From NCBI GenBank assembly GCA_903919125.1, contig CAIXGS010000031.1:1-38265 (forward strand): a stretch of 38,265 nucleotides of DNA. Reading direction: 5' to 3'. A program made the position numbers and the translations under genes. Of this stretch, positions 6,140-38,265 are shown one piece after another. Within the stretch, counting starts at the first letter, position 1, and each line of letters starts with the position of its first letter. Below the pieces are notes generated by a model. It had not been told where the DNA came from. It worked only from the letters and a program-made list of their open reading frames with translations, and ran no database searches. This stretch comes from an uncultured Spartobacteria bacterium. Its GTDB lineage: Bacteria; Verrucomicrobiota; Verrucomicrobiia; Chthoniobacterales; Chthoniobacteraceae.

Positions 6140-7360
6140 ATGGAAGTTTACCGGCAAATCAGTGCGATGGAACCTTTGCTCCCCAAGGGGCAGAGCGTCC
6201 GTCTCTCTGCATTGACCTGTGAAATTCTGAAGGCGTCGGGCCGGCTGACGGGCCAGGTGCATTCGCCGTTGGTGCTCCAGCGCGTGGCAGATCTCGTCCG
6301 CGAGATGAACTGCTATTATTCCAACCTGATAGAAGGTCACAAAACCATCCCCCGCGACATCGAGCGGGCGATGAAGCGCGATTTTTCACACGATCAAACC
6401 CAGCGCGACAACCAGCAGCTCAGCCTGGCTCATATCGCGGTGGAAAAGCTGATGGAAGAACGGCTTGCCGGCGAGCCGGTGGATGTTTATTCCCCCGACT
6501 TTCTGTGCTGGCTTCATCGTGAATTTTATACCCGCCTCCCTGAACCGCTGCACTGGGCTGTCACCAAGCGCGGCAAGCGTTACCAAATCCAGCCCGGCGG
6601 ACTGCGCGATTTCATGGTGGATGTCGGCAAACACACGCCACCCGATTTTGCCGCCTTGCCCAAGTTCCTTAGCCGGTTCCACTCCTTCTACGGCGACAAA
6701 CATATTTTGGAAACCGACCGCCTGGTGGCCATCGCGGCAGCTCACCATCGGCTCGCTTGGATTCATCCGTTTGGCGACGGCAACGGCCGCGTCATCCGAC
6801 TCCAATCCCATGCGCAGATGATCTGCCACGGTATTGCCGGTCTCGGCCTGTGGACGCTTTCACGCGGACTGGCTCGCCATCGCCAACGTTATTACGCCAG
6901 CCTCGACGCGGCCGACCAAGGTCGTCGCGGCGATCTCGATGGTCGGGGCAATCTCTCCGACGCGACTCTGGCCGACTTCTGCGTGTTCTTCCTTGAGACC
7001 GTGTTGGACCAGATTCAGTTCATGAGCGGTCTACTCGGCCTGCCCGCGCTGCGCACGCGGGTGGAACGCTACTTCCAGTTTCAGGCCCTGCATCTGGAGC
7101 GCTACCGAGAAGAAATCATGCGCGTGGCCCGCACGCTGGTGGATGAAGGCGAAATCCCGCGCGCCCGCGTGCAGGAAATCACCGGCAAAGCCACCACCGT
7201 CTCCGTCGAAATCATCAAGCTGGGACTGAAACACGGCTACTTTGAAACGCCCAGCCCCAAAGGCCCGCTGCGCGTCGCCTTCCCGGCGAAAATTCACGAG
7301 TTCTATTTCCCGCAACTCTTCCTTGATTTGCCGGTCGAACCCGCTGGGAGGGTTGCATGA
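6140..7360 (+). CDS. Fic family protein (probable AMPylase), class II inhibited
   Basis: This 406-residue protein carries the Fic catalytic motif HPFGDGNGRVIR, with catalytic His209, Asp213, Asn215 and Arg217. Fic enzymes usually transfer AMP from ATP to a hydroxyl side chain of a target protein. An inhibitory helix motif of the (S/T)xxxE(G/N) type is visible N-terminally as SNLIEG (Ser61, Glu65, Gly66), which places it in class II, where the same chain blocks its own ATP site. The C-terminal part (about 335-385, IPRARVQEITGKATTVSVEI) looks like a winged-helix domain that may recognise DNA or the target. No partner antitoxin gene is adjacent, as expected for class II. The ATG at 6140 is chosen over one at 6167; neither has a clear ribosome site. 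It is transcribed alone, away from the remnant at 5340-5910. Confidence 0.9.
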   Translation: MEVYRQISAMEPLLPKGQSVRLSALTCEILKASGRLTGQVHSPLVLQRVADLVREMNCYYSNLIEGHKTIPRDIERAMKRDFSHDQTQRDNQQLSLAHIAVEKLMEERLAGEPVDVYSPDFLCWLHREFYTRLPEPLHWAVTKRGKRYQIQPGGLRDFMVDVGKHTPPDFAALPKFLSRFHSFYGDKHILETDRLVAIAAAHHRLAWIHPFGDGNGRVIRLQSHAQMICHGIAGLGLWTLSRGLARHRQRYYASLDAADQGRRGDLDGRGNLSDATLADFCVFFLETVLDQIQFMSGLLGLPALRTRVERYFQFQALHLERYREEIMRVARTLVDEGEIPRARVQEITGKATTVSVEIIKLGLKHGYFETPSPKGPLRVAFPAKIHEFYFPQLFLDLPVEPAGRVA

Positions 7361-8675: not shown

Positions 8676-9668
8676 ATGCCTGAGGACCCAATTCACCAAC
8701 CAAACGACAAGCTCCTCAAGGCCACGTTCTCCGTCCCGGAGAACGCCCGTGCCTTCTTCGAAAACCATCTCCCCAAAGAACTCACCGCCGCCCTCGACTG
8801 GACTTCCCTCGCGCTCGAACCCTGCTCCTTCATCGACCCACAACTCACCAGTTCCGAGAGCGATCTGCTCTTCCACATCACGCTCCAACAAAGCGACGCC
8901 TTCCTCTACCTGCTCTTCGAACACCAAAGCTCCGAGGACCCACGCATGGCCCTTCGCCTGCTCTCTTACATCCTGCGCATCTGGGAGCGCTTCGCTCAAA
9001 ACCATCCCCCGCCCGCAAAACTTCCCTCGATTCTTCCGATCGTCCTGGCACAAGGCAAACGCCCTTGGAAAACGTCCACACGCTTGGAGGACCTCATCGA
9101 TTTACCGCCGAGCGTCGCGCAAATTCTGCGCCCATGGCAGCCCACGCTCGCCTACCATCTGCTCGAGCTCGTGCGCATTCCCTACGACGCCTTTGCTGGC
9201 ACGCCGGAAGGCATCCTCACCCTGCGCGCCCTCAAAGCCGAGCCCATGAATGAACTCCTCGAAGATGTCATTTGGGACGAGTCTCTTTTATTCTCAATTT
9301 CGGAGAGTGCTTTGGAGCGGATTCTGCGCTACATTCTCAATGCAGACGTCAGCATCCCTCAGCTCAAGGAACGATTGGGCAAGATTCAAGCCAAACCCCT
9401 GCAATCCAAAACCATGACACTCGCCGATCGACTCAGAGAAGAAGGCAAACTCGAAGGCAAACTCGAAGGCAAACAAGAGGGACTATCCGAGGGACAATTA
9501 CGCGCTTTCAGAACTGCTGTGTTGCGCGCCTTGGAGATCCGACACGGCGCTTGTCCGGACGGAATCCGCGAGGCCCTCGAGTCCATCGACGATCCAACTC
9601 GCCTTGAGAGACTCATTGAAAGTGCTTTTCGTTCTGAATCACTCGAAGCCTTCGCGCAAAACCTTTAA
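8676..9668 (+). CDS. Rpn family PD-(D/E)XK nuclease (transposase_31-like)
   Basis: This 330-residue protein matches the Rpn/YhgA family (formerly putative transposase, PF04754): DKLLKATF near the N-terminus, then SDLLFHITLQQSDAFLYLLFEHQSS (about 62-86, broken here by the family's acidic residues and the E-x-Q motif EHQ), and a helical C-terminal half. E. coli members are DNA endonucleases that raise recA-independent recombination. Residues about 250-268 are a short tandem EGKLEGKLEGKQEG tract typical of the family's variable tail. The 3' 288 bp (9396-9683) are duplicated at 19939-20214. A repeat core lies 78 bp after the stop. The ATG at 8676 has no clear ribosome site. The catalytic residues appear intact. 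Confidence 0.82.
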   Translation: MPEDPIHQPNDKLLKATFSVPENARAFFENHLPKELTAALDWTSLALEPCSFIDPQLTSSESDLLFHITLQQSDAFLYLLFEHQSSEDPRMALRLLSYILRIWERFAQNHPPPAKLPSILPIVLAQGKRPWKTSTRLEDLIDLPPSVAQILRPWQPTLAYHLLELVRIPYDAFAGTPEGILTLRALKAEPMNELLEDVIWDESLLFSISESALERILRYILNADVSIPQLKERLGKIQAKPLQSKTMTLADRLREEGKLEGKLEGKQEGLSEGQLRAFRTAVLRALEIRHGACPDGIREALESIDDPTRLERLIESAFRSESLEAFAQNL

Positions 9669-11658: not shown

Positions 11659-12993
11659 ATGCATGAAATCATCTGTCCACATTGCACCAAGGCATTCAAA
11701 ATCGACGAGGCTGGTTACGCGGACATTCTCAAACAGGTTCGCGACCATGATTTTGAACAGCAGTTGCACGAACGACTTGAGTTGGCTGAGCAGGTTAATC
11801 AAAACGCCGTTGAACTTGCAAAAACCAAAGCTGTTAGCGAATTAGAGAAGGTAACTGCAGCCAAGGATGCCGAGATACAAAGACTGAATGCTGAAATCAA
11901 AGCGGGTGAGGCAGCAACGGAGTTCGCCGTAGCCAAGGCGATAAGCGACTTGGAAAAGGAGCGTGACGCGCTCACCAACGAACTCAAGCAAGCAAGCCAT
12001 GACAAAGAGGCGGTATCCCAGCTTAATGAAGCGAAACAGAGACTCGCAATCACCGAGGCGGTCGATGTGGTGAAGACGGAACGAGACGAACTGAAGAGCG
12101 AATTGGAGCGAGCACGACTTGAGAAGCAACTTGCCGAAAAATCGCTCAAAGAAAAGTATGAGACGCAAATCAAGGATCGTGATGACGCGATCGAGCGCCT
12201 CCGGGATATGAAGGCTCGTCTATCAACCAAGATGGTTGGTGAAACCCTTGAGCAGCACTGCGAAACTGAGTTTAACCGCATTCGAGCGACAGCATTTCCG
12301 AGGGCGTATTTCGAGAAGGACAATGATTCGCGAGCAGGCAGCAAGGGAGATTACATCTTTCGCGATTCGGACGAGGCCGGTACGGAGATCGTCTCAATAA
12401 TGTTCGAGATGAAGAACGAGAACGACGAAACGGCCACAAAGAAGAAGAACGAAGATTTTCTCAAAGAACTCGACAAGGATAGGCATGAAAAGAACTGCGA
12501 ATATGCAGTTCTCGTTTCACTTCTTGAGCCAGATAGCGAGCTTTACAACTCCGGCATCGTCGATGTTTCCCACCGACATCGAAAGATGTATGTCGTGCGC
12601 CCGCAATTTTTCATCCCGATTATTACGCTCCTGCGTAACGCCGCGCAGAACTCGCTGCAGTATAAAACCGAACTTGCCTCAGTGAGAGCCCAAAACATTG
12701 ATATCACGGACTTTGAAGATAAGCTTGTGGAATTCAAGGATGGCTTCGCACGGAACTACGAGCTGGCATCCAAAAAATTTAAGACCGCGATAGAGGAGAT
12801 CGATAAAACCATCGACCATCTTCAGAAGACTAAGGATGCATTGCTTGGTTCTGAAAATAATCTTCGTCTTGCCAACAACAAAGCCGACGACCTAACCGTT
12901 AAAAAGCTGACCAAGGGCAATCCCACAATGGCCGCAAAGTTCGCAGATCTTAAGAACGGGGCGGTTCCCATTTTAGATGAGGCGGATGACTAG
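11659..12993 (+). CDS. DUF2130 domain protein with zinc-ribbon-like start
   Basis: This 444-residue protein opens with CPHC (Cys6, Cys9), half of a possible zinc knuckle. A long coiled coil follows (about residues 25-195, rich in Glu, Lys, Ala). The DUF2130 domain covers about 200-400, with the segments [45 protein letters not shown] and [12 protein letters not shown]. The EMKNE and FLKELDKDR stretches recall a PD-(D/E)XK-type core, which has been suggested for this family, but no activity is established. There is no signal peptide, so it is cytoplasmic. Its stop codon shares the palindrome CTAG (12990-12993) with the stop of the opposing FGE-like gene. Confidence 0.85.
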
Positions 12994-14960
12994 TTACTCC
13001 CGTTAGTAACTCTTTCCTTACCTCTCCGCGCTCCGCCTCCGCTCGTCCCTCGCACCGGCTGCTCGATCCGCTCGCCCACGGCTACGCCCTGTCTCGTCTC
13101 GATTGAACCCCGGGCGACGCGGAAGCCAATGCGGTTGCTGCGGTAGTCAGGAGAGTTGATGCTCCGGCGCGCCGAACGACAATCAGCTGTGCCGTCGAAC
13201 CACGAGCCGCCGCGAAACACGCGGGTGACACCCGTCTCGGACCCTCTCGGATCATCGACTCCCAACCCGTAAGGACCGGCCCAGTCCCAACACCACTCGT
13301 ACACATTTCCTGCCATGTCATAAAGCCCATAGCCGTTGGCGGCGTACTTCCCCACCTCTACAGTCCCTGTACCATCAAAGTTGGCATCCCCTTTTATCAG
13401 TTCATCTCCATTCGGGAACGGTTTGCCCGCCAACCCTCCACGAGCTGCCCTTTCCCATTCAGCCTCTGTCGGCAACCGATACCCGTTCGCGTTCCAGTCA
13501 CACGCGATATTTTCCACTTTTTCCCCACGATAAATCTTCCCGCGAACCTGGTAACAGGGTTTTAAGCCCTCTAGTTCACTCTTTGCGTTACACCATTTCA
13601 CAACGTCGTACCAGCTCACACCTGTGACAGGGTGTTTATCAGAGGTCCCATCTCTGTCACCGTTGAAGTCGTAACCTTTCGCGTTGGCCCAAGCCGACAC
13701 GCTCTTCCACTCCCCGTAGGTCACCTCCGTTTGCCCCAAAAAAAACGCAGTCACATTCACAGAATGCACCCGAGCGTTCTTATGTTCACTGGATCCCATC
13801 TCAAAGGCGCCCCCTGGAATCGACACCAAGAGCCGTCCGTCCTTGTCATTAACCCCCTCAGTAACAGCCTTGGACTGCCTTTCTTTCACCTCGGCTGCTG
13901 CAAGGCGCTCCTTCTCCGCACGCTCAACTGCGGCAAGTCGCTCCCTCTCCGCACGCTCAGCCGCTGCAAGGCGCTCCTTCTCCGCACGCTCAGCCGCTGC
14001 AATACGCTCCTTCTCGGCCCTGATGCGATCCTGTTCTCTTTTTTCCTCAGCTGCAATACGCTCCTTCTCGGCCTTGATGCGATCCTGTTCTTTTTTTTCC
14101 TCATCGTAAACCTTCTGCGTGTTGCCAGTATTGGCGACAGGTCCGGAGGTTGCCTTCGCTGGGCCTTTGAACGCTCCAAATATGCCGCCACGCTCTCCTT
14201 CAAATGCAAGCGATCTGAGCCGCACCTCAGCTTCAGACAAATCGCAATTATTGCTGGAAAGAAAAAGCTGCGACTTTTTCTGAGGCAACTCGACTACCCA
14301 GTAGTACTGCTCGGAATTCTGGATATCCGTTTGGCCAATCTTACCAAGCGTTCTCTGCCCATACGCAATCGCCCAACCAGGTCCGTTGTCAACGCTTACC
14401 TTAAACCGTCCATCGGCATCACTTTCCACATCCGACTCTTTCTCGGCCATGAGACCAATTAAAATTTTTGTGGCGAACTCCGAGCCCAACATCGCCATTG
14501 ACGCAATCTCTCCGAAGTCCAGCCCCCGTTTTTGTTTGTCGACCTTTTCGATCAACTTCATCCCTCGTTCAGCCGCTGTGGAAAATGGTTCGAATTTCTT
14601 CACCATCGCCTGACGCTCTTCATTCGCTGCGGCTTTGACTTTCTTGGCACCGGACTCGGTGAGTTCCTTGACCGCCTTATCCTCTAGTTCTTGAAGTTTC
14701 TTGTTCTCTTCGACCAACTTCTTTTTTAAGGCCGCAGCATCCGCGAGTTCGACTGCTTGCTTTGCCAGCGCCTTCATCTCGGATTCTCCAATCACCCAGA
14801 TCGGTACTAAGCCAAGCTTCACGTTTTCACCGCCCTTTGTAACGATGAAAACCTGCCCTTCGATGTCGCGTTTCGCCTGTGCAATCGACGGCCCGGTGAA
14901 TAGGGCAATCAGTGTGATGAAAACCGAAGCGGCTAATTTTGGGAACAGGGGTGTTTTCAT
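12990..14960 (-). CDS. Secreted coiled-coil FGE/SUMF1-like protein
   Basis: This 656-residue protein has a Sec signal peptide (about 1-29, ending IAQA), a helical region with Lys/Glu-rich segments (about 80-170), a small beta region (190-240) and a long charged helix (about 275-372) built from 18- and 11-residue repeats such as [13 protein letters not shown]-terminal formylglycine-generating-enzyme-like (SUMF1, C-type-lectin fold) domain covers about 383-617: [81 protein letters not shown]. True FGE uses two cysteines (C-x4-C) at that last site; only the second is present, so sulfatase activation is unlikely and ligand binding more likely. The AbiGi-like gene ends 8 nt upstream, so the two are almost surely co-transcribed. 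Confidence 0.82.
13893..14105 (-). repeat. In-gene tandem repeats encoding a charged helix
   Basis: Two adjoining 54-bp units (about 13998-14051 and 14052-14105) encode 18-residue EEK(R/K)EQDRI(R/K)AEKERIAA. Several 33-bp units (about 13893-13997) encode 11-residue [11 protein letters not shown]-type repeats. Copies differ by only a few bases, so unit number could change by slippage or recombination without breaking the frame. Confidence 0.75.
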
Positions 14961-14968
14961 GGTGCGGG

Positions 14969-15808
14969 TTAAATACTCGAAAGCATCTCTCTAGAGAGCA
15001 GGCAGACGGCTGGCTTGTCTGGCGGGTACAGCTTTGTTCTGAGTGCCTCGCTCTGCATGGCGTATGCGAGAGTTTGGTGATCAGGCAACACCACCATGGC
15101 GAGGTTTCCAGGAGCGCAGGGGAGGCTCTCCACCTTGAGTTTCTTCTGAGCAACCGCCCCTATGACACGCCATTCCCTGTCTTCCAAATTTGTGAAGAGG
15201 CCACCAAAATCCACTCGAAGGTGACGATCTTCGGGAGGTCCTGACTTTTTTCGCGCTGCCTTGTCCAGAGAGTTTGGGATGCCTTCATCCGAGGACGCCG
15301 TATTTTTATTGGAACTGTCCGGGTTTGATGAACTTTGACCGCGCGCGCCGTTGTATGTTTTAAGCCAGCTCGAAATCAGCTCACATTCCGGCTTTAATTT
15401 TTCGTCCTTCTTTGCGTTCTGTAAAAGGGACACCAGCGCTTTACGAAAAGGGTCCCTCTTCTCATTGGGAACATACACCACAGGACGCCCACCGGCACGC
15501 ATCACAAATTTACGAGTGAAACCCAAGGCCATCCCACCATACCGGCCTGAGTGCTCTTGCGCTGCGCTCACGTTCCACTCGCAAAAACACAGCATTCCGT
15601 GTGTTGCCTCAATTTCACCCTCGACCAACCATTCTGAATGTTCGCGTTTGGGGATTCCAAATTTCAATCCAGTTTCCAAAAGCAGGAAAAGATGGTCTAA
15701 AAACTTTCGACGATCTGCCGTACTCTTGGGACCTCCAGAAATCCCCTTCGGCTCCGTCCAATGAAAGAGCAGTTGACGGTGAATTTGGGCAAATTTATTA
15801 CGCGGCAT
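14969..15808 (-). CDS. AbiGi-like (abortive infection antitoxin-type) protein
   Basis: This 279-residue protein shows the pattern of the AbiGi family (putative abortive phage resistance antitoxin, PF10899): an opening LLFHWTEPKG (about 13-22), a central GMLCFCEWNVSAAQEHSGRYGG (71-92) where the family has a CFC(D/E)-type motif and a conserved His and Tyr-Gly, PVVYVPN (109-115), and a DREWR motif at 210-214. A low-complexity linker (about 153-190) precedes the last part. In lactococcal AbiG the partner is AbiGii; no AbiGii-like gene is visible here, and instead the gene is linked to FGE-like genes. There is no signal peptide, so it is cytoplasmic. The ATG at 15808 is the only sensible start. 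The assignment is by motif memory and could be to a sister family. Confidence 0.55.
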   Translation of the reverse strand: MPRNKFAQIHRQLLFHWTEPKGISGGPKSTADRRKFLDHLFLLLETGLKFGIPKREHSEWLVEGEIEATHGMLCFCEWNVSAAQEHSGRYGGMALGFTRKFVMRAGGRPVVYVPNEKRDPFRKALVSLLQNAKKDEKLKPECELISSWLKTYNGARGQSSSNPDSSNKNTASSDEGIPNSLDKAARKKSGPPEDRHLRVDFGGLFTNLEDREWRVIGAVAQKKLKVESLPCAPGNLAMVVLPDHQTLAYAMQSEALRTKLYPPDKPAVCLLSREMLSSI

Positions 15809-16245
15809 CTGAGAGGCGAAAAACGTAGCAGGAGAAATTGCATTCTTTTACTTCCACCAGTAATTCGACTCAAACATATTTCCCCACTCCTTTATCCCGT
15901 TCCATGCAAGAGCAACCTTCCCCAGTAACGTACCGTTTGGAAGCGACGATTACCCGCCCCGATGTGGTGGATTGGCTGCGCTGCCTGATCCCAGACAATT
16001 CGCCGGAAGCTTAGGGCTTGCGAGGGCGATTACCGTGTATGTTCACCTGTTGAGGCTACCATGTTGAATGAACGCCCGATTCCTTACCCGTTGCTCTGCA
16101 AACCCATCATCGGCTTGGCCTCAGAGCCCCGCCCTGCGTCTGCTCGCCACGCTGGGGATAACAAACACTACGGCATCGAAGTCTTTCGTCACCGGTTCGT
16201 CCCTCACCTGCGACTCGAGCCTTCATTCCTCCGCTTCCTAACTTG
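15809..16245. other. Gap between AbiGi-like and membrane FGE-like genes
   Basis: Apart from a 36-codon plus-strand frame at 15904-16014 that I cannot assign (it reads MQEQPSPVTYRLEATITRPD at its start), I see nothing coding. A diversity-generating retroelement would place its accessory gene and template repeat in such a position after an FGE-type gene, but no reverse transcriptase or near-copy of the FGE 3' end is visible here. Confidence 0.5.
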
Positions 16246-18300
16246 TTAGTTGGATGGAACAAGGGCGGGGCGGAAACCAGTGCTGAAGTCCCGGAAGCCC
16301 GGGTAGTTCCCGTACCGGAAGGCCGCTCGACAGCAGGCGGCGCCGTCGTTCCAAGCGCCGCCGCGCAACACGCGGATGACGCCCGATGAAGGCCCCGAGG
16401 GATCTGATCCGCTCTGCAATTTGCCGTCATACCAATCCGCGCACCATTCCAACACGTTGCCATGCATGTCGTGAAGCCCCCAAGCATTGGCTTTCTTCGT
16501 GCCTACGTTGTGGGGCTTGCCTGCACTGTTTCCATCATACCAAGCCACTTCCTTGACGGTCCCTTCCGAGTAGAGTCCAGTCTCGCCAGCTCGGCACGCA
16601 TATTCCCACTGCGCCTCCGTAGGCAGGGCGAACTTCCAACCGCTTGGCATGACGCCGCCATTATTCGCCTTCTTGATGAACTCTTGAGCGTCATCCCAAC
16701 TCACATTCTCAACCGGAAGATTAACGCCTTTCGACACACTTGGATCGTTCCCCATCACTGCCTGCCACTGAGCCTGCGTGACCTCTGTCTTCCCCATCCA
16801 GAAGCCTTTACTCAGGGTCACGTTTACCTGATTTCCGTCGACTGGACTGCCCATGATGAAAGCCCCGCTAGGGCAAAACACAAAGGGCATGAGCATTTCC
16901 CCAGCCAACCACACGCCCGCGGTGGCGCCAACCCGCCCAGCACCCAACTCCGCTGTGAGTTTGGCATTGAGCTCAGCCACAGCCACTCGTTCCTCCTCTC
17001 GGCGCTTTGCTTCCGATATCTTATCTAAACCAACGGGTACACCGATCAAAACCGTCAACACGACTAGAGCAATTAAAGCGTTTATCCTTTTTCTCCTAGT
17101 TTCTTTCTCCGCTTTTAACTCTCCCACTAACATCGAATGCCGCCGACTCAGCGCCTCGCCGATGAGGACGCTCCCAGCGTACGCCTGACTGTGCTTTTCA
17201 GCCAGAGCAGCAGCGTCCTTCTTCTTTGATGGCAGCAACGCCTTCACCTCTGCCAGCAGGCGGTTTCTTTCCCCCTCTAACGTCCGCTTGACTTGTGTGG
17301 CGTCAAAGTCCGCCCAGTCCCGGCTTGATATCTTCTTCTCCGTGCGCTCGCCCTCTGCAAACTGTCCCGCGTTTATTTCCCCAACTGCCTTTTCAAACAA
17401 CGCCTTGTCCGAGTGCCACGCAACCTCTGCGGCCTTGAGGATTTTCTCGCACTGGTCTAAATCCTTAAAAATTACCGCGAGTTTTGCATTGAAAGCCTCC
17501 AAAGGCGGATGAGGTTCGACCTCCATTATAAACTGCATCTCATCTGATCCCATGCCTTCGTCGGACAAGGCTTTTAGCGCCTCGTCAGCTTTAGCCCAAA
17601 ACTGAATTATGACCGCATCGAGTTCTGCAGAGTTTTTCCGTTCATCATCCACTCTGCGTAATTGAGCTCGAATCTTATCTAACGCGTTGCTTTCCTCCGT
17701 TCCGGATCGCAGTTTCTTCAAAAAAGAGGAAACTCGCTCTCCAAGCTTTGAGATTTCGCCGCCTTGTGAGCCTGCCCACAGTGCCAACTCACACAACTTT
17801 TGCAGTGCCTCCTTCATTGGGCCGGATCCGAGTTCACTCGTGTTTGCGGCAGCTAAATCCAAAAAAGATTGCTGCAACGTCCCCATGAACCGGATGTCTG
17901 CAAGATCCTCCAACTCAGACTCCACGTCGGACAGGTTGTGCAATCGCTTCTGGACCAAGACACCAAGAAACGCCCCCAATCGGATTCCGGCAATGACTTG
18001 ATTAAAACGGCCAGCCGCCAGATCACGTCCAAAGGATTGAAGCAACCGTTCCATGGCAGCCATGGCTGTGCGGATGGCTTTCTGACGTTCCGCTTTGGAC
18101 TGGGCAGCCTCCCGATGCGCCCGGTCCTCCATCAGGCGGATTTGTTCAATCTGAAGCTTCTGCTGCTCCAGCGCGATCTGCTCCTTTTGCGATTCCAGCA
18201 GCTTACGGGAATTTTTGGCAGCCTCGTTTGCTGCGGATAATTGAGCGGCCGTGGCAAGGTCGCGCATGCCTTGGCGGAAATAATCATTTTGATCAGACAT
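16246..18300 (-). CDS. Membrane-anchored FGE/SUMF1-like protein
   Basis: The protein has about 684 residues from the ATG at 18300 (MSDQNDYFRQGMRDLATAAQ); the frame reaches a GTG at 18330, but that start adds nothing family-like. The N-terminal 400 residues are helical and charged (coiled coil about 15-75 with KEQIALEQQKLQIEQIRLME). One membrane helix follows a RRKR stop near residue 415 (INALIALVVLTVLIGVPVGL). A C-terminal FGE/SUMF1-like domain lies on the far side (about 460-680): GAFIMGSPV, TEVTQAQWQAVMG, PVENVSWDDAQEF, LPTEAQWEYACRAG, DMHGNVLEWCADW, RGGAWNDGAACCRAAFR. The first FGE catalytic cysteine is absent here too. By the positive-inside rule the coiled coil is cytoplasmic, giving a plausible outside-in sensor layout. 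It is first in the same-strand group with the AbiGi-like and secreted FGE-like genes, 437 bp ahead. Confidence 0.8.
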   Translation of the reverse strand: MSDQNDYFRQGMRDLATAAQLSAANEAAKNSRKLLESQKEQIALEQQKLQIEQIRLMEDRAHREAAQSKAERQKAIRTAMAAMERLLQSFGRDLAAGRFNQVIAGIRLGAFLGVLVQKRLHNLSDVESELEDLADIRFMGTLQQSFLDLAAANTSELGSGPMKEALQKLCELALWAGSQGGEISKLGERVSSFLKKLRSGTEESNALDKIRAQLRRVDDERKNSAELDAVIIQFWAKADEALKALSDEGMGSDEMQFIMEVEPHPPLEAFNAKLAVIFKDLDQCEKILKAAEVAWHSDKALFEKAVGEINAGQFAEGERTEKKISSRDWADFDATQVKRTLEGERNRLLAEVKALLPSKKKDAAALAEKHSQAYAGSVLIGEALSRRHSMLVGELKAEKETRRKRINALIALVVLTVLIGVPVGLDKISEAKRREEERVAVAELNAKLTAELGAGRVGATAGVWLAGEMLMPFVFCPSGAFIMGSPVDGNQVNVTLSKGFWMGKTEVTQAQWQAVMGNDPSVSKGVNLPVENVSWDDAQEFIKKANNGGVMPSGWKFALPTEAQWEYACRAGETGLYSEGTVKEVAWYDGNSAGKPHNVGTKKANAWGLHDMHGNVLEWCADWYDGKLQSGSDPSGPSSGVIRVLRGGAWNDGAACCRAAFRYGNYPGFRDFSTGFRPALVPSN

Positions 18301-18431
18301 AAGGTGGCGTGCGTCGGGCATATCATGCACGACGTGCTTTGGGCGAACAGATTCCGTTTGACGGGTTGCAAAATCATAGAGTAACCGAGGGAACGGTTTA
18401 TCGGCTCAGATCCACACGCTTCCATCAAGCC

Positions 18432-33136: not shown

Positions 33137-34408
33137 CTACACCACCAACTGCTCCGTCGAATCCCCAAAGCTATCCAACGGCAGCCCCATGCGGTCTGCG
33201 AGGGTGAGTAGCAGGCTGGAGAACTTGCGGTTGTTGCTTTGTTCGAAGTCCAGGGTGCGGCCGGTCTTGAAGGTGCCGCCGAGGCCGCCAGCCATGAGGA
33301 GGGGGACTCGGTCGGCGTTGTGGGCGATCCATTGTTCGTTGGCTAGGACGATGCAGCTGTTGTCTAGCACGCTGCCGTCGCCTTCTTGCGTGTTGGCGAG
33401 TTTGTGGAGCAGGTAGGCGTATTGCTCGACCCAGAAGCGGGTGATGGAGGCGAACTCCTTGCCTTGCCACTTGTGCGAGAGGCTGTGGTGGTCGTCGCGC
33501 AGGCCTAGGAAGGGATAGACTTGGCCGGAGAGGTTGTTGGTCATCAGCATGGTGGCGATGCGCGTGCGGTCGGTCTGAAATGCTAGGGCGATGATGTCGC
33601 ACATGAGACGGGCGTGGGCGTCGAGCTGCGTGGGCAGGCCGTCAGGTGGACGCTGCGATTTGATCGCTTGGCTGAAGCTGCTGTCGGCTCCGGCTTGCAG
33701 GCGGGCGAGGCGGCCTTCGACTTCGCGGATGCTGGTGGCGTATTCGTCGAGCTTGGCTTTGTCGGCGTGGGAGACTTTGCGGCTGACGTCGCGCAATTGG
33801 CTGGCGACGTGATCGAGCACGCTGGCCTGGGCGCGGCTGCCTTTGCTTTGGAACAGGCTGTCAAAGGCGAGTGAGGGGTAAAGCTCGGTGGGCACGGGGG
33901 ACACGGGCGAACTCCATGACACGTGCGAGGAATAGAGCATGGAGTAGCCGGACTCATGGAAGCCGCTAATAGGGCGTTCGCAGGCGAGCACGAGGCTGGA
34001 CAGCGGGGTGGCGTCGCCCATGCGCTTGGCCAGCACTTGATCCAGGCTGGCGGCAGCGCGGATCTCGCGGCCACCATTGGGCTGGATGCCGCTGAGGATG
34101 CCGGCGGCACCTCGCGCATGGCCACCGCAGACGCTGCCGGCGTGCCGCAGGCCGTGGATGAAGTTGACCTTGTCCTTCACGCCTTCCAGCGAGGCGAAGG
34201 CGCCGCCGAGTTCGAGAGCGGAGCCGCTGCCCTTGGACCACCATTGATCCGCGTGCACTCCATCGCCGAAGAACAGGAAGGCAAAGCGTTTGGGCGGTCC
34301 CTTCTGCGGGCTCTCGGCGGCGGCGCACAGGGATTCCAGCCATGGCAGCGCTACGGCGGCTCCCAGGCCTTTGAGGACAACGCGGCGCGAGGTAGAATGA
34401 GTAGTCAT
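33137..34408 (-). CDS. DUF1552 family exported protein
   Basis: The product has 423 residues from the ATG at 34408, where MTTHSTSRRVVLKGLGAAVA gives a Tat-type signal with the twin arginines at 8-9, as is usual in this family; the frame can be read back to a TTG at 34465 that overlaps the upstream stop. Landmarks include RFAFLFFGDGVHADQWW, HGLRHAGSVCGGHARGA, LVLACERPISGFHESGYSML, ALAFQTDRTRIATMLMTNNL and DDHHSLSHKWQGKEFASITR. DUF1552 is related to DUF1501 and normally pairs with DUF1592 proteins, as here. Function is unknown. Confidence 0.9.
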   Translation of the reverse strand: MTTHSTSRRVVLKGLGAAVALPWLESLCAAAESPQKGPPKRFAFLFFGDGVHADQWWSKGSGSALELGGAFASLEGVKDKVNFIHGLRHAGSVCGGHARGAAGILSGIQPNGGREIRAAASLDQVLAKRMGDATPLSSLVLACERPISGFHESGYSMLYSSHVSWSSPVSPVPTELYPSLAFDSLFQSKGSRAQASVLDHVASQLRDVSRKVSHADKAKLDEYATSIREVEGRLARLQAGADSSFSQAIKSQRPPDGLPTQLDAHARLMCDIIALAFQTDRTRIATMLMTNNLSGQVYPFLGLRDDHHSLSHKWQGKEFASITRFWVEQYAYLLHKLANTQEGDGSVLDNSCIVLANEQWIAHNADRVPLLMAGGLGGTFKTGRTLDFEQSNNRKFSSLLLTLADRMGLPLDSFGDSTEQLVV

Positions 34409-34461
34409 GGGATTGGCGGTTGTTGGTTTCATTAAAGTTGAAGGGCTTGGGAAATCGAGGT

Positions 34462-37400
34462 TCAAGGAGCGGCGGCGACAAAGTCTCGGCCGCGTTGCTG
34501 GCGGAATTGCTGGCTCAAAACAACGGTCTCAAACAATACGGAGAGGCCTTGGCCACCCTGTAGTTTCTTCTCCATGTCTGCGAGCAAGGGCTGATCCGAT
34601 AGCGTTACTGAACGTCCCAGCGCGTAGCCCAACAGCTTGCGGCTGAGGTTGTGCTGGAAGTCGGATACGCGGCGGTGTTCGATGTAGTCGATCAAGCCCG
34701 CGATGCCTTCAGCCTGGCCACCTCCGGGCATGGGACCAGTGGCTTGGATGGCGCGACCGGCGAGGTCTTTATTGCGCAAGCGTCCGACGGCATCAAAGGC
34801 TTCCATGGTTAAACCTAGGCCGTCGAAGTGAACATGGCACATGGCGCACTGACGGTTCGATGTGTGGTCAGCTAGCAGTTCTCGGATGGTCTTGGTGGCT
34901 TCTACTTCGGTCTTGGGCAGCTCGGGCACATCGGCTGGCGGAGGTGGGAAGTGCTGACCTAGCAGGTGATGCACGACCCAGAATCCGCGCTTCACGGGGC
35001 TTGTTCGGCTCCCTGCGGAGTTCTTCGCCAAAATGACCGGCATACCCAGCAGTCCGCCACGGCCCATGCCGCGCAGGCCCTCGACGCGACGCCAGTCCGC
35101 GGGCGCTCCTTTTTCATCAGTGCTGTGGTATTGGCGCTCGATGTCGCCACCGTAAAACTTGGCGAGAGCCGCGTTCACGAAGGTGCTGTCACCATGCAGC
35201 AACTCGCCTACCGGCTGGTCTTGCTGGAGCAGATGCGTGAGGAGTCGCGTGGGCTCCTCGAACATCGCCTGGCGCAAGGGCGCGTCGTAGCCGGCGAAGG
35301 CACCGGGCGGGATGGGATCCTTGGACAAGTAATCGCGATAACGCAGCCATTGGCCAAAAAACTCGCGCGCGAAGCCCTCGATCCGCGGATCCTTCAACAT
35401 GCGGCGTGTCTGCGCTTGCAGCACCGCCTCGTCTTGGAGCTTGCCCGCGCGCGCCGCTGCGAGCAGTTCCTCGTCCGGCGGCGAGGACCACAGGAAGTAG
35501 CTTAGCCGCCGCGCAAGCGCCGTCTGGGCCAGAGGCTGTACGCCGCCACCCTCAGGTGCATCGGGGCTGCGATAAAAGAAATCCGGCGACATGAGCACCG
35601 CGCTCAACATGCTACGCAGCGAGCCCTCGACGTCTTCGCCTTGCTCGCGCAATTGCTGGTAAAGCCTGCGTAGGGCCTTCGACTCATCCGCTCGCAAAGG
35701 CCGACAGTAGGCGCGTTCGGCGAGTCGCTCGATATCTCGCAGCGCGGGCGCCTCGGCTTGTTCCAGAGTGCGCTCGTAGCCCGTGAGGTCCGCACGGACC
35801 CGCTCGAAGAAGCCGTGGATCAAGTCGAACTGCGAATTCGGCTTCTCAGGTTGCATGGCATCCGGCACCAGTTTGACGCCCAACTTTTCAAGGTAGTGGC
35901 GCTCGAACTTGGCCATCAACTCTGGCTTCATCAGCAGCGGGTCGTCCGAGCGCAGAAAGTCGAATCGCGGATCCTGCAACACATGACGCTCGGCCCGCTC
36001 GAACCACACAAAGCCACGGAACATCGTCTCCACGCTCTGGGTCACAAAATCCAACGCCTTCCACAGCCGATCCAACTCTGCGCGCTCAGCATCGGTGAGC
36101 ACCTTCTCCATCAGTGGCTGGTCATCGCGGAAGAAGCCCTCGACGAGGTGGAAGCCTGCGGTCACACCGCGCTTGGCATCGGTAAAGAAGAAGCGATTCG
36201 GGAACGCCTTGCAAAACGGACCAGCTGCTGTCGCCAGATCCTTTGCGAGTTGGCTCTCTGGGCGGAGCAAAATCTCCACCTCAGTAGAGGGAACTAGCGA
36301 TTCGGCAATGGCTGCTAGTGCGTCCGGTTTCTTGCCCATCGCTTGCTGAAGAAATACGGCGGACTCTGCGCTGGCTCGTGCATCCAGCTCGCAGTCGATG
36401 AGCAACTGCTTGCCCTGCAAGCCTGCCAACGCCTGCGGTCCAAGCGGTATCGTGAGAACGAATGGCGCCTGCAACGCCAGCGAATCGGGATCTAGCGCCT
36501 CACCACTCGGATGTTTGCCAAAGGCCAATTGACTTGCAAGTTCGGGTGACTCCCGCTCCAGCACAGCGCGCAGAGTTTCTACTTCATGCTCTTTAGCTTC
36601 TTTGTCATTGCTCGGCGGTCCATCCCGCTTGCTGAACATGGGGCGATGCAGAATCACAAGGCCCGGCTTTGAATCGAAGGCCGGATCCAACCGAAGATAA
36701 AGTGTGGTCACTTCGTCTTGCGCAGGCTTAGCGGCCTTCGATGGTGCTGGCAAGCGACCGATGCGAAGCTTGCTCCGCGTTCGAATGTTGCCCACACCAC
36801 CCTTGTCGCGGCTAGCGGCTACTTTGACGCGCATGGCGAGGTGATCGATCGGCGCGCGGCCTGATCGGATGAGCACTGGATCGTGCAAGCCGACGCCAGT
36901 TTGCATCAGCGCGATGAAAGCGGTCACCTCGCGCACGGCTTGCGGAACGTCTGTGGCATGCGTCGGCGCGGGCAATGCGTCCCACATGGCTCCGAGCTTG
37001 CGCATGAAGCTCTCGCCGGACGTTGCTTCAGCCAGCGTCTTCACCACCAGCGCCAGATAGCCGCCACTGAGTCCCTGCCGCTGAGCCCAAGTTTCGGGGC
37101 TCAAAGCGCGGTCCGTTTCGTTGCGGTGTTTGTATCGCCAGGCCGATACTACGTAGTCGTGAATGCTGACGTCATGCTGCCGGTAGAAGTCGATGGTCGC
37201 CTCCTCGGTGAGCTTCTTGCGCTCGCTGTAGCTGGTGACAGGGAAGGGCGCAAAGCCAATGCCCTCGGGCCTGAGCACGAGGTGCTCGGAAACGAACTGG
37301 GCCGCGCCGAGATACTTGTTCAGCAAACTGGGCGTCATGCCCAAGGCCTCACCGGTGTTATCAAAACCTTCGCCCCCAGCTGGATCGGCAGGAAACTCGG

Positions 37401-37923
37401 CCGTCGCGCGAATGTCCACGCCCGTCAGCGCGCGGATGGAGAGATCGTATTCCGTGCTAGATAGCCTCCGAGGCAGCACCGCGCCAGGATCTCCTGCGTT
37501 GCGTTTTGCCTCAGTGAGCATGATAGACTCGATCGCAGCGAGCACCGCTTGGCGTTCCTCACTGCTCGGCTGTGGCTCGTCCTCGGGCGGCATCTCGCCA
37601 TCACGGATGAATTCCGCGATGTTCTTCCAGCGCCGGAAATCTGCCGTGACATCGCGCTCTGTGGCGTAACGCGTGAGGTCCAGTTCGCCCTTGGCCTTGT
37701 CCTTGCGGTGGCAGCTCTGGCAGTGCTTGCTGACAAACGGCTCCACCTTATCGCGCATGAGATCACTCGCGGCGTGAAGCGGCAGCACGACCTGTTGAGC
37801 CGAAGCGACCGGCGCGTCAACCGCCATGCCGCCAGCCGTCGCGATGAGGAGCGCGAGCGCCGCGGCAAAGGCCGAGTGAAAGGGAAAGCGGGAAGCCATG
37901 ATTGGGTGAAAGTGATAAGCCAT
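34462..37923 (-). CDS. DUF1592-family multi-domain cytochrome-type protein
   Basis: The product has 1153 residues from the ATG at 37923, preferred because AAAGGCGG precedes it; the frame opens at a TTG at 37992, and another ATG at 37899 is possible. A signal peptide follows (AFAAALALLIATAGG). The cytochrome site is CQSCH (C68, C71, H72 from this start). DUF1587 (LPRRLSSTEYDLSIRALTGV), DUF1595 (ERAYCRPLRADESKALRRLY), DUF1592 (MLSAVLMSPDFFYRS, LARRLSYFLWSSPPDEELLA), DUF1588 (KRGFWVVHHLLGQHFPPPP, CAMCHVHFDGLGL) and DUF1585 (NLSRKLLGYALGRSV) follow in order. It is longer than the usual 800 or so residues because of an insertion of about 400 residues between DUF1587 and DUF1595. It is the first gene of the pair with DUF1552. 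Confidence 0.9.
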   Translation of the reverse strand: MAYHFHPIMASRFPFHSAFAAALALLIATAGGMAVDAPVASAQQVVLPLHAASDLMRDKVEPFVSKHCQSCHRKDKAKGELDLTRYATERDVTADFRRWKNIAEFIRDGEMPPEDEPQPSSEERQAVLAAIESIMLTEAKRNAGDPGAVLPRRLSSTEYDLSIRALTGVDIRATAEFPADPAGGEGFDNTGEALGMTPSLLNKYLGAAQFVSEHLVLRPEGIGFAPFPVTSYSERKKLTEEATIDFYRQHDVSIHDYVVSAWRYKHRNETDRALSPETWAQRQGLSGGYLALVVKTLAEATSGESFMRKLGAMWDALPAPTHATDVPQAVREVTAFIALMQTGVGLHDPVLIRSGRAPIDHLAMRVKVAASRDKGGVGNIRTRSKLRIGRLPAPSKAAKPAQDEVTTLYLRLDPAFDSKPGLVILHRPMFSKRDGPPSNDKEAKEHEVETLRAVLERESPELASQLAFGKHPSGEALDPDSLALQAPFVLTIPLGPQALAGLQGKQLLIDCELDARASAESAVFLQQAMGKKPDALAAIAESLVPSTEVEILLRPESQLAKDLATAAGPFCKAFPNRFFFTDAKRGVTAGFHLVEGFFRDDQPLMEKVLTDAERAELDRLWKALDFVTQSVETMFRGFVWFERAERHVLQDPRFDFLRSDDPLLMKPELMAKFERHYLEKLGVKLVPDAMQPEKPNSQFDLIHGFFERVRADLTGYERTLEQAEAPALRDIERLAERAYCRPLRADESKALRRLYQQLREQGEDVEGSLRSMLSAVLMSPDFFYRSPDAPEGGGVQPLAQTALARRLSYFLWSSPPDEELLAAARAGKLQDEAVLQAQTRRMLKDPRIEGFAREFFGQWLRYRDYLSKDPIPPGAFAGYDAPLRQAMFEEPTRLLTHLLQQDQPVGELLHGDSTFVNAALAKFYGGDIERQYHSTDEKGAPADWRRVEGLRGMGRGGLLGMPVILAKNSAGSRTSPVKRGFWVVHHLLGQHFPPPPADVPELPKTEVEATKTIRELLADHTSNRQCAMCHVHFDGLGLTMEAFDAVGRLRNKDLAGRAIQATGPMPGGGQAEGIAGLIDYIEHRRVSDFQHNLSRKLLGYALGRSVTLSDQPLLADMEKKLQGGQGLSVLFETVVLSQQFRQQRGRDFVAAAP

Positions 37924-38265
37924 AGAGCCGCCTTTCTTAGGAAATTTTTTTGCGTGTGCCGAGTCGATTTGGCCCTGAACGTGGCGCGGCAAAGAAAGTG
38001 GGAGGAAGTCCCTTTTTTCGTACGTGTGGGGGCGGGGCCGAATCAGTCTTGCGGGTTAAATTCAAAACAAACAAAACGACTACCCTTCCTAAAGTGTTGC
38101 GGTTCAGGTTTATTAACACAGGGTTCATACCAAATCTTGAAGAAAACTGGTTCTTCTCTCCCGGGAACGCGGAGCCCTAGCTCCGCTTTGACGCCCCAAA
38201 AGCTCGGACAGGCATTGCGGAGCTGGGGCGTGCGCTGGGGAAGCTGGCGTCCACGTGGGTGAAAG
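37924..38265. other. Upstream region of the DUF1592 gene, window edge
   Basis: No gene is supported. The promoter of the DUF1592/DUF1552 pair should lie here on the minus strand. The far part contains the family C repeat. Confidence 0.5.
38129..38221 (+). repeat. Dispersed ~93-bp repeat, family C copy 2
   Basis: CCAAATCTTGAAGAAAACTG, then CTTCTCTCCCGGGAACGCGG, then CTTTGACGCCCCAAAAGCTC and GGACAGGCATTGCGGA. It is inverted relative to 22986-23078. A local GGAG...CTCC inverted repeat (38171-38185) lies in the middle. Confidence 0.75.

Follow-up and report, generated by a model that had tools for sequence, protein, structure and literature searches.

Targets of diversity-generating retroelements (DGRs) lying away from the reverse transcriptase (RT) are already known from cyanobacteria, where domains are grafted (PMC7517822), from Treponema denticola (PMC4891356) and from Thiohalocapsa (PMC10907252). 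HRDC-domain genes are counted among DGR accessory genes (PMC4891356), and cis features such as cruciforms have been proposed to activate the cyanobacterial remote targets (PMC7517822). For BPP-1, a hairpin behind the variable repeat (VR) was reported to be required, and the initiation of mutagenic homing (IMH) region and this hairpin, once transplanted to another gene, were enough to turn that gene into a target (Guo et al. 2011, PMC3240598). Here we analysed a 38,265-nt contig (C31; CAIXGS010000031.1) of an uncultured Spartobacteria bacterium, which in its entirety constitutes the window, and compared it with the rest of the draft genome and with genomes of the same family. The segment 16263–16384 of the window is very probably a VR of a template repeat (TR) situated on another contig of the genome, C75, and the gene 16246–18297 a remote DGR target carrying a formylglycine-generating enzyme (FGE)-type domain. 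The features concerned are:

16246–18297, minus strand: DGR target gene (open reading frame 16246–18330, start probably ATG 18297) with a helical N-terminus, one hydrophobic helix and a C-terminal FGE/C-type-lectin domain
16263–16384, minus strand: VR, 122 nt, from the alignment to the TR (C75:1729–1850)
16263–16282, minus strand: GC-rich 3' end of the VR, probable IMH region, where the TR and both VRs of the genome are identical in the alignment
12990–14960, minus strand: second FGE-domain gene (PF03781), not VR-bearing

The start codon was picked by eye, with genus homologues having MSD or MSE at the same place, and the IMH role of 16263–16282 is assigned as probable from the alignment.

The variable repeat and its template

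Over the 122-nt alignment the window VR and the TR are identical at 103 positions, and 19 of 19 differences fall on adenines of the TR, which contains 31 (hypergeometric P 1.7e-14). The substitutions comprise 11 A>T and 8 A>G, with no A>C, and all 91 non-adenine positions are identical. Contig C56 carries a second VR, inside a caspase-FGE gene; it differs from the TR at 27 positions, 25 of them adenines (including four A>C), and retains 89 of 91 non-adenine bases. The 100-nt flanks of the TR and the two VRs share a mutual identity of only 23–39%, and, when the TR was used as a genome-wide query, E values <0.8 were obtained only for the TR itself, the window VR and the C56 VR. The TR also appears suited to coding variation, with 30 of its 31 adenines at codon positions 1–2, spread over 18 codons that cannot be converted to stops and that allow 2.8e17 possible proteins; 29 of the 31 adenines are altered in one or both VRs. 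Directly upstream of the C56 target gene, a partial second caspase-like open reading frame (L033, 2655–3269) repeats the N-terminus of that target.

The first-pass annotation, made from the window alone, had noted that the 3' ends of both FGE-like genes resemble DGR variable regions. Both C-terminal peptides are indeed present, in PF03781 FGE domains that end the minus-strand reading frames 16246–18330 and 12990–14960, but the resemblance holds for the former only. The annotation had proposed searching for near-copies that differ mainly at template adenines, and such a relation links 16250–16380 to the C75 TR but does not extend to 13100–13230. The segment 13112–13233 was rejected as a VR, as its 38 differences from the TR are divided into 19 at adenines and 19 elsewhere. 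The second FGE gene thus reads as an ordinary FGE paralogue, its FGE domain falling in another clade. Across the genome, 18 PF03781 stretches were found, with 0 (window) and 2 (C56) non-adenine mismatches to the TR and 19 to 54 in all 16 others; these values derive from the best ungapped match, which in nine of the 18 rows is not the FGE end, and rows L152–L154 matched one single stretch, so that the true comparison of FGE ends covers seven places. One further paralogue, L145 (C67:17674–18348), has a C-terminus that reads like the VR protein (RGGAWNGGAAFCRAAFRYYRSPEYRS) yet shows 32 non-adenine differences from the TR, and is perhaps an undiversified relative of it.

The retroelement core lies on C75 (2,990 nt, L001):

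39–126: group II intron end (RF00029)
148–744: HRDC-domain gene (PF00570, 2.9e-17), its stop overlapping the RT start
744–1745: RT (PF00078, 1.4e-14), with YMDD present
1729–1850: TR, 122 nt, starting inside the last RT codons
Also on C75: OmpA-like gene

The genome has a single PF00078 match, this RT, and hence none occurs in the window; the HRDC gene adjoining it provides the accessory gene expected of a DGR. Among the best 80 loci of RT homologues, 60 have a TR/VR pair inside the locus. As the window is a whole contig, with the VR 16.2 and 21.9 kb from its ends, and the RT is on C75, the RT and TR must lie 16 kb or more from the VR, which would therefore have been written in trans. A cis-type arrangement, with the window gene beside the RT, is ruled out by the same distances. 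These findings bear out the earlier argument that, with no RT in the window, only a remote retroelement acting in trans could diversify the gene; the lack of any DGR RT in the genome, which had been named as grounds for abandoning the idea, was not observed. The reading frames of both target and RT are intact.

The C56 VR may be a cis target. C56 opens with a sequence that, judged by eye, resembles an intron 5' end, and RF00029 is found at the start of C75; this group II intron end, immediately upstream of the HRDC gene, is the probable cause of the assembly break at that point. C56 and C75 might be adjacent in the genome with a group II intron between them, but the intron end is present in ten copies. 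Besides C75 39–126 there are nine others elsewhere in the genome, the C75 copy being 97–100% identical over at least 140 nt to copies on four other contigs and 98% identical to five more contigs over 103–108 nt. Another repeat, the 13-mer AAAGTGTCTGTCC, occurs eight times in the window (291, 385, 8240, 9743, 18893, 19922, 20228 and 21253; mean 0.00 in 100 shuffles), and a 15-mer containing it is dispersed over C75, C56, C24 and C50.

The target protein and related retroelements

Three regions were distinguished in the window protein:

16267–16884, minus strand: FGE-sulfatase domain (PF03781, 2.5e-37) enclosing the VR
17029–17085, minus strand: probable transmembrane helix (residues 416–434 of the reading frame, from hydropathy only), with KETRRKR before it
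17086–18297, minus strand: long helical N-terminal region, with homologues in six same-genus genomes

The hydrophobic helix following a basic stretch suggests an N-in topology with the FGE domain facing outward. In a sequence search of the PDB (phmmer), the variable protein TvpA of Treponema denticola (2y3c) scored 1.4e-31, whereas the best FGE enzyme reached 6.9e-14. An AlphaFold model of the protein (mean predicted local distance difference test score 83) gave the same order for the fold of the FGE domain, with TvpA as best match (VIA-align Z 27.1, root-mean-square deviation 2.4, 221 aligned), followed by PvdO (Z 25.7), PorK (22.6) and FGE enzymes (22.5 and below). The predicted structure thus agrees with a TvpA-like DGR variable protein of C-type-lectin fold with the VR at its C-terminus. 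Aligned by phmmer to the FGE enzyme 6muj, the protein has Asp in place of the first Cys of the C-x4-C pair and retains the second, the Asp being at a variable codon; in the second FGE gene the first Cys is likewise absent, judged by eye from an ungapped alignment with the first gene. The annotation had reported this Cys as missing in both proteins and had argued for binding rather than sulfatase activation; the alignments agree on the Cys, and both sequence and fold favour a TvpA-like protein over a formylglycine-generating enzyme for 16246–18297. The FGE domain presumably binds or senses a ligand. The helical N-terminus had no Pfam match, and a specific fold for it was rejected, as the best matches (Z 10.5; spectrin-like proteins and designed bundles) lie within the chance range of helical models.

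Of 39 other family genomes, six, all in the same genus, contain homologues of residues 1–472 (E <= 1e-10); comparison in full with three of these proteins gave 29–32% identity, and the N-terminus had no further match in an 88-protein set. The FGE domain shows a different affiliation. In a tree with the VR cut off (75 of 88 FGE domains passed filters), the window protein joins the caspase-FGE targets of C56 and of the same-family genome G002 in an eight-member clade (support 99/93), whereas the FGE domains of the scaffold proteins of G007, G008 and G012 group with the second window gene (100/92). A constraint joining the window protein with these three was rejected by the approximately unbiased test (p-AU 1.3e-148), the constrained group having been chosen after inspection of the tree. 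As the N-terminus is kin to proteins of the genus and the FGE domain belongs to the DGR-target clade, the protein is, on these comparisons, a chimera in which a resident helical, membrane-anchored scaffold bears a DGR-type FGE module; that the module was transferred onto the scaffold, and not the reverse, is the direction we infer. Around the helical-membrane gene in five relatives there was no conserved partner gene, and besides the FGE and helical genes the neighbourhood matched only 33140–34528 and 34465–38055 at the far right of the window, both in G013. An AbiGi-like protein lies between the two FGE genes (14969–15808; PF10899 1.6e-9, PADLOC AbiGi 9.7e-11), and was not a partner of the helical-membrane gene in the five relatives compared. 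The window also encodes a Fic-domain protein (6140–7360) and a Transposase_31 (YhgA-like) protein (8676–9668).

The RT was matched at E <= 1e-20 in four of 40 family genomes, own included. Among the scaffold-bearing genomes, G015 has a match, whereas G007, G008, G010, G012 and G013 have none to this RT, the one RT type compared. In G002 the order is VR target, HRDC, RT, TR and OmpA-like gene (labelled by eye from its likeness to that of C75), with four VRs within 13.4 kb of a single contig; their differences fall at adenines in 16/19, 22/25, 16/19 and 17/20 cases, the remaining three in each being C>T. The same-genus G015 has one TR and seven VRs on seven contigs, with 17–20 of 18–26 differences at adenines, 1 to 6 non-adenine differences each and P values of 5e-11 to 7e-8 for five VRs and 2e-7 and 3e-7 for the other two. 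Its TR scan gave 11 further TR-like places, of which seven were counted as VRs, the rest being short, weak or split. Six of these VRs are presumably remote, given their positions on other contigs of a draft genome, and the seventh is beside the RT; three have protein-kinase-like sequence ahead of the FGE domain (by eye). The helical scaffold of G015 is on its contig C27, which is absent from the TR-like places. In the L035 genome the only VR found was one beside the RT, in an alignment split by a small gap. A model scan of 77 DGR targets (the L042 target was omitted and one L113 VR had no open reading frame) detected FGE domains in 73, NACHT in 11, caspase in 10 and protein kinase in seven. 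The sets of homologue targets and VR-downstream segments excluded L001 and also L036, whose record is that of G002. A degenerate TR pattern had 0 matches in viral_contigs.

An element downstream of the variable repeat

Behind the VR lies a further candidate component:

16166–16236, minus strand: 71-nt element with the GAGGGACGA motif, delimited by ungapped alignment to its C56 counterpart

The element is identical to the sequence downstream of the C56 VR at 49 of 71 positions, above all 300 shuffles, and also resembles those of L035 (0/300 shuffles as good) and L037 (1/300), with no likeness to the region behind the second FGE gene (264/300). A whole-genome query with the C56 element found only itself and did not list the window copy, and therefore the likeness of the two rests on the pairwise shuffle comparison. 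The consensus of five elements forms a long bulged hairpin of 20 pairs with GAGGGACGA at its tip; six pairs have a compensatory change, although, as measured by the covariation term (0.1), the hairpin has no support. Single copies showed modest folding at best, with z-scores of -2.28 (C56), -1.30 (L035) and -2.00 (L037) for copies other than that of the window. GAGGGACGA was present in 25 of 80 VR-downstream segments (window and C56 included), against 0.28 expected from the same loci, and pairing between the two arms flanking GGGACGA is better for true partners than for shuffled ones (27 rows, 0/300 shuffles reaching the observed value); in both analyses the rows are not independent, some loci being near-duplicates. 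High-ranking words of the GCGGAGC type in these segments may be low-complexity repeats. A search for short perfect hairpins within 100 nt downstream of five TR/VR ends found one only, behind the C56 VR. The shared element suggests a testable rule for locating remote targets.

Mechanism, alternatives and known systems

We propose that TR RNA from C75 would be reverse-transcribed with errors at adenines, and that the complementary DNA would replace the VR at the 3' end of the gene 16246–18297, with TR/VR identity, the GC-rich 3' end and the hairpin-like downstream element directing the homing. As many as 18 codons of the C-type-lectin face would thereby be rewritten without a stop codon, on a membrane-anchored protein. 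The homing steps, ongoing activity, outward FGE domain and ligand binding or sensing are presumed parts of this model. It is about an even call whether, more broadly, one DGR acts as a genome-wide hypermutator of the sensor repertoire in the genus, with FGE domain, VR, IMH and hairpin forming a portable cassette that makes a resident membrane scaffold a variable receptor, as with caspases and kinases in relatives.

Several observations weigh against the window gene being an active target of the C75 DGR. The absence of A>C among the 19 changes is unlikely under even base insertion, and current diversification of the VR is presumed on the basis of a single genome. The RT is classed as of DGR type from its own TR/VR and those of its homologues, and not from a DGR-specific RT model or an RT tree. 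The downstream element has no likeness to that of G002a (126/300 shuffles score as well), and folding of the window copy does not surpass that of shuffled sequences (z -0.49, repeat -0.53), as is the case for the G002a and G015 L126 elements (z +2.52 and +0.28). Finally, C75 is short and its binning could be wrong.

This last point would make C75 a contaminant and the true RT another, unseen one, which its 2,990 nt and the 1.63% estimated contamination of the draft genome allow for; we regard this as improbable, given the recurrence of its intron end at 97–100% on four and 98% on five other contigs, and the match of its TR to two other contigs at 91/91 and 89/91 non-adenine bases. That the VR is a fossil, written by the C75 DGR in a gene no longer diversified, has a precedent in a remote locus with a perfect non-adenine match and no variation (DGR 1; PMC10907252). 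We consider it unlikely, though the most plausible of the alternatives: all 91 non-adenine bases match the TR and the target and RT frames are intact, and therefore any halt of activity must be recent.

The two other alternatives concern the FGE domain itself. RGG.W and GFR motifs are common to FGE domains, of which the genome contains 18 stretches, and the TR/VR likeness could in principle reflect ordinary conservation of paralogues without copying; a VR that equals the TR at every non-adenine base while the flanks do not, and the 19 to 54 non-adenine mismatches of the other 16 stretches in their best TR match, make this very improbable. That the window protein is a formylglycine-generating enzyme is hardly credible in spite of its PF03781 match (2.5e-37), as the first catalytic Cys is missing, its place is a variable codon, and TvpA is the closer relative by sequence and fold. 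A remote target of the C75 DGR thus remains the preferred interpretation. The gene looks recruited, its scaffold occurring in six sister genomes and here being joined to an FGE/VR module and a downstream element, and we predict that a remote element allows the bacterium to vary the binding face of what is probably a membrane protein. Surveys restricted to RT-adjacent targets miss such genes, as Roux et al. 2021 state of their own survey (PMC8144416).

Compared with described systems, the hairpin-like element recalls the BPP-1 target site, where a hairpin/cruciform likewise lies directly behind the VR (Guo et al. 2011, PMC3240598); the stem is 8 bp long in BPP-1, and a GRNA tetraloop is found in phage DGRs, whereas here the consensus is a long bulged hairpin with a GAGGGACGA tip, weak in the window copy. 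In Thiohalocapsa PB-PSB1, the targets of trans-acting DGRs likewise bear defence-type domains, caspase-like ones among them (Dore et al. 2024, PMC10907252), and the caspase, NACHT and kinase domains among the 77 DGR targets are in line with the sensor reading proposed there; diversification was seen in metagenomes in that case, whereas the present system is known from one genome, and the main text of that paper does not mention HRDC, for which a gene is present here. The cyanobacterial remote targets similarly combine a C-terminal C-type-lectin VR module with N-terminal domains of other kinds (kinase, orthocaspase) and are scattered through the genome at a distance from the RT (Vallota-Eastman et al. 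2020, PMC7517822); the system described here differs in its Verrucomicrobiota host, its helical membrane-anchored N-terminus lacking a Pfam match and its HRDC accessory gene. The Treponema denticola DGR shares the HRDC accessory gene and FGE-type and remote targets (PMC4891356), and its TvpA (2y3c) is the closest solved structure, but whereas the T. denticola targets are described there as TvpA-like FGE proteins, one of the targets here is membrane-anchored and the other caspase-fused.
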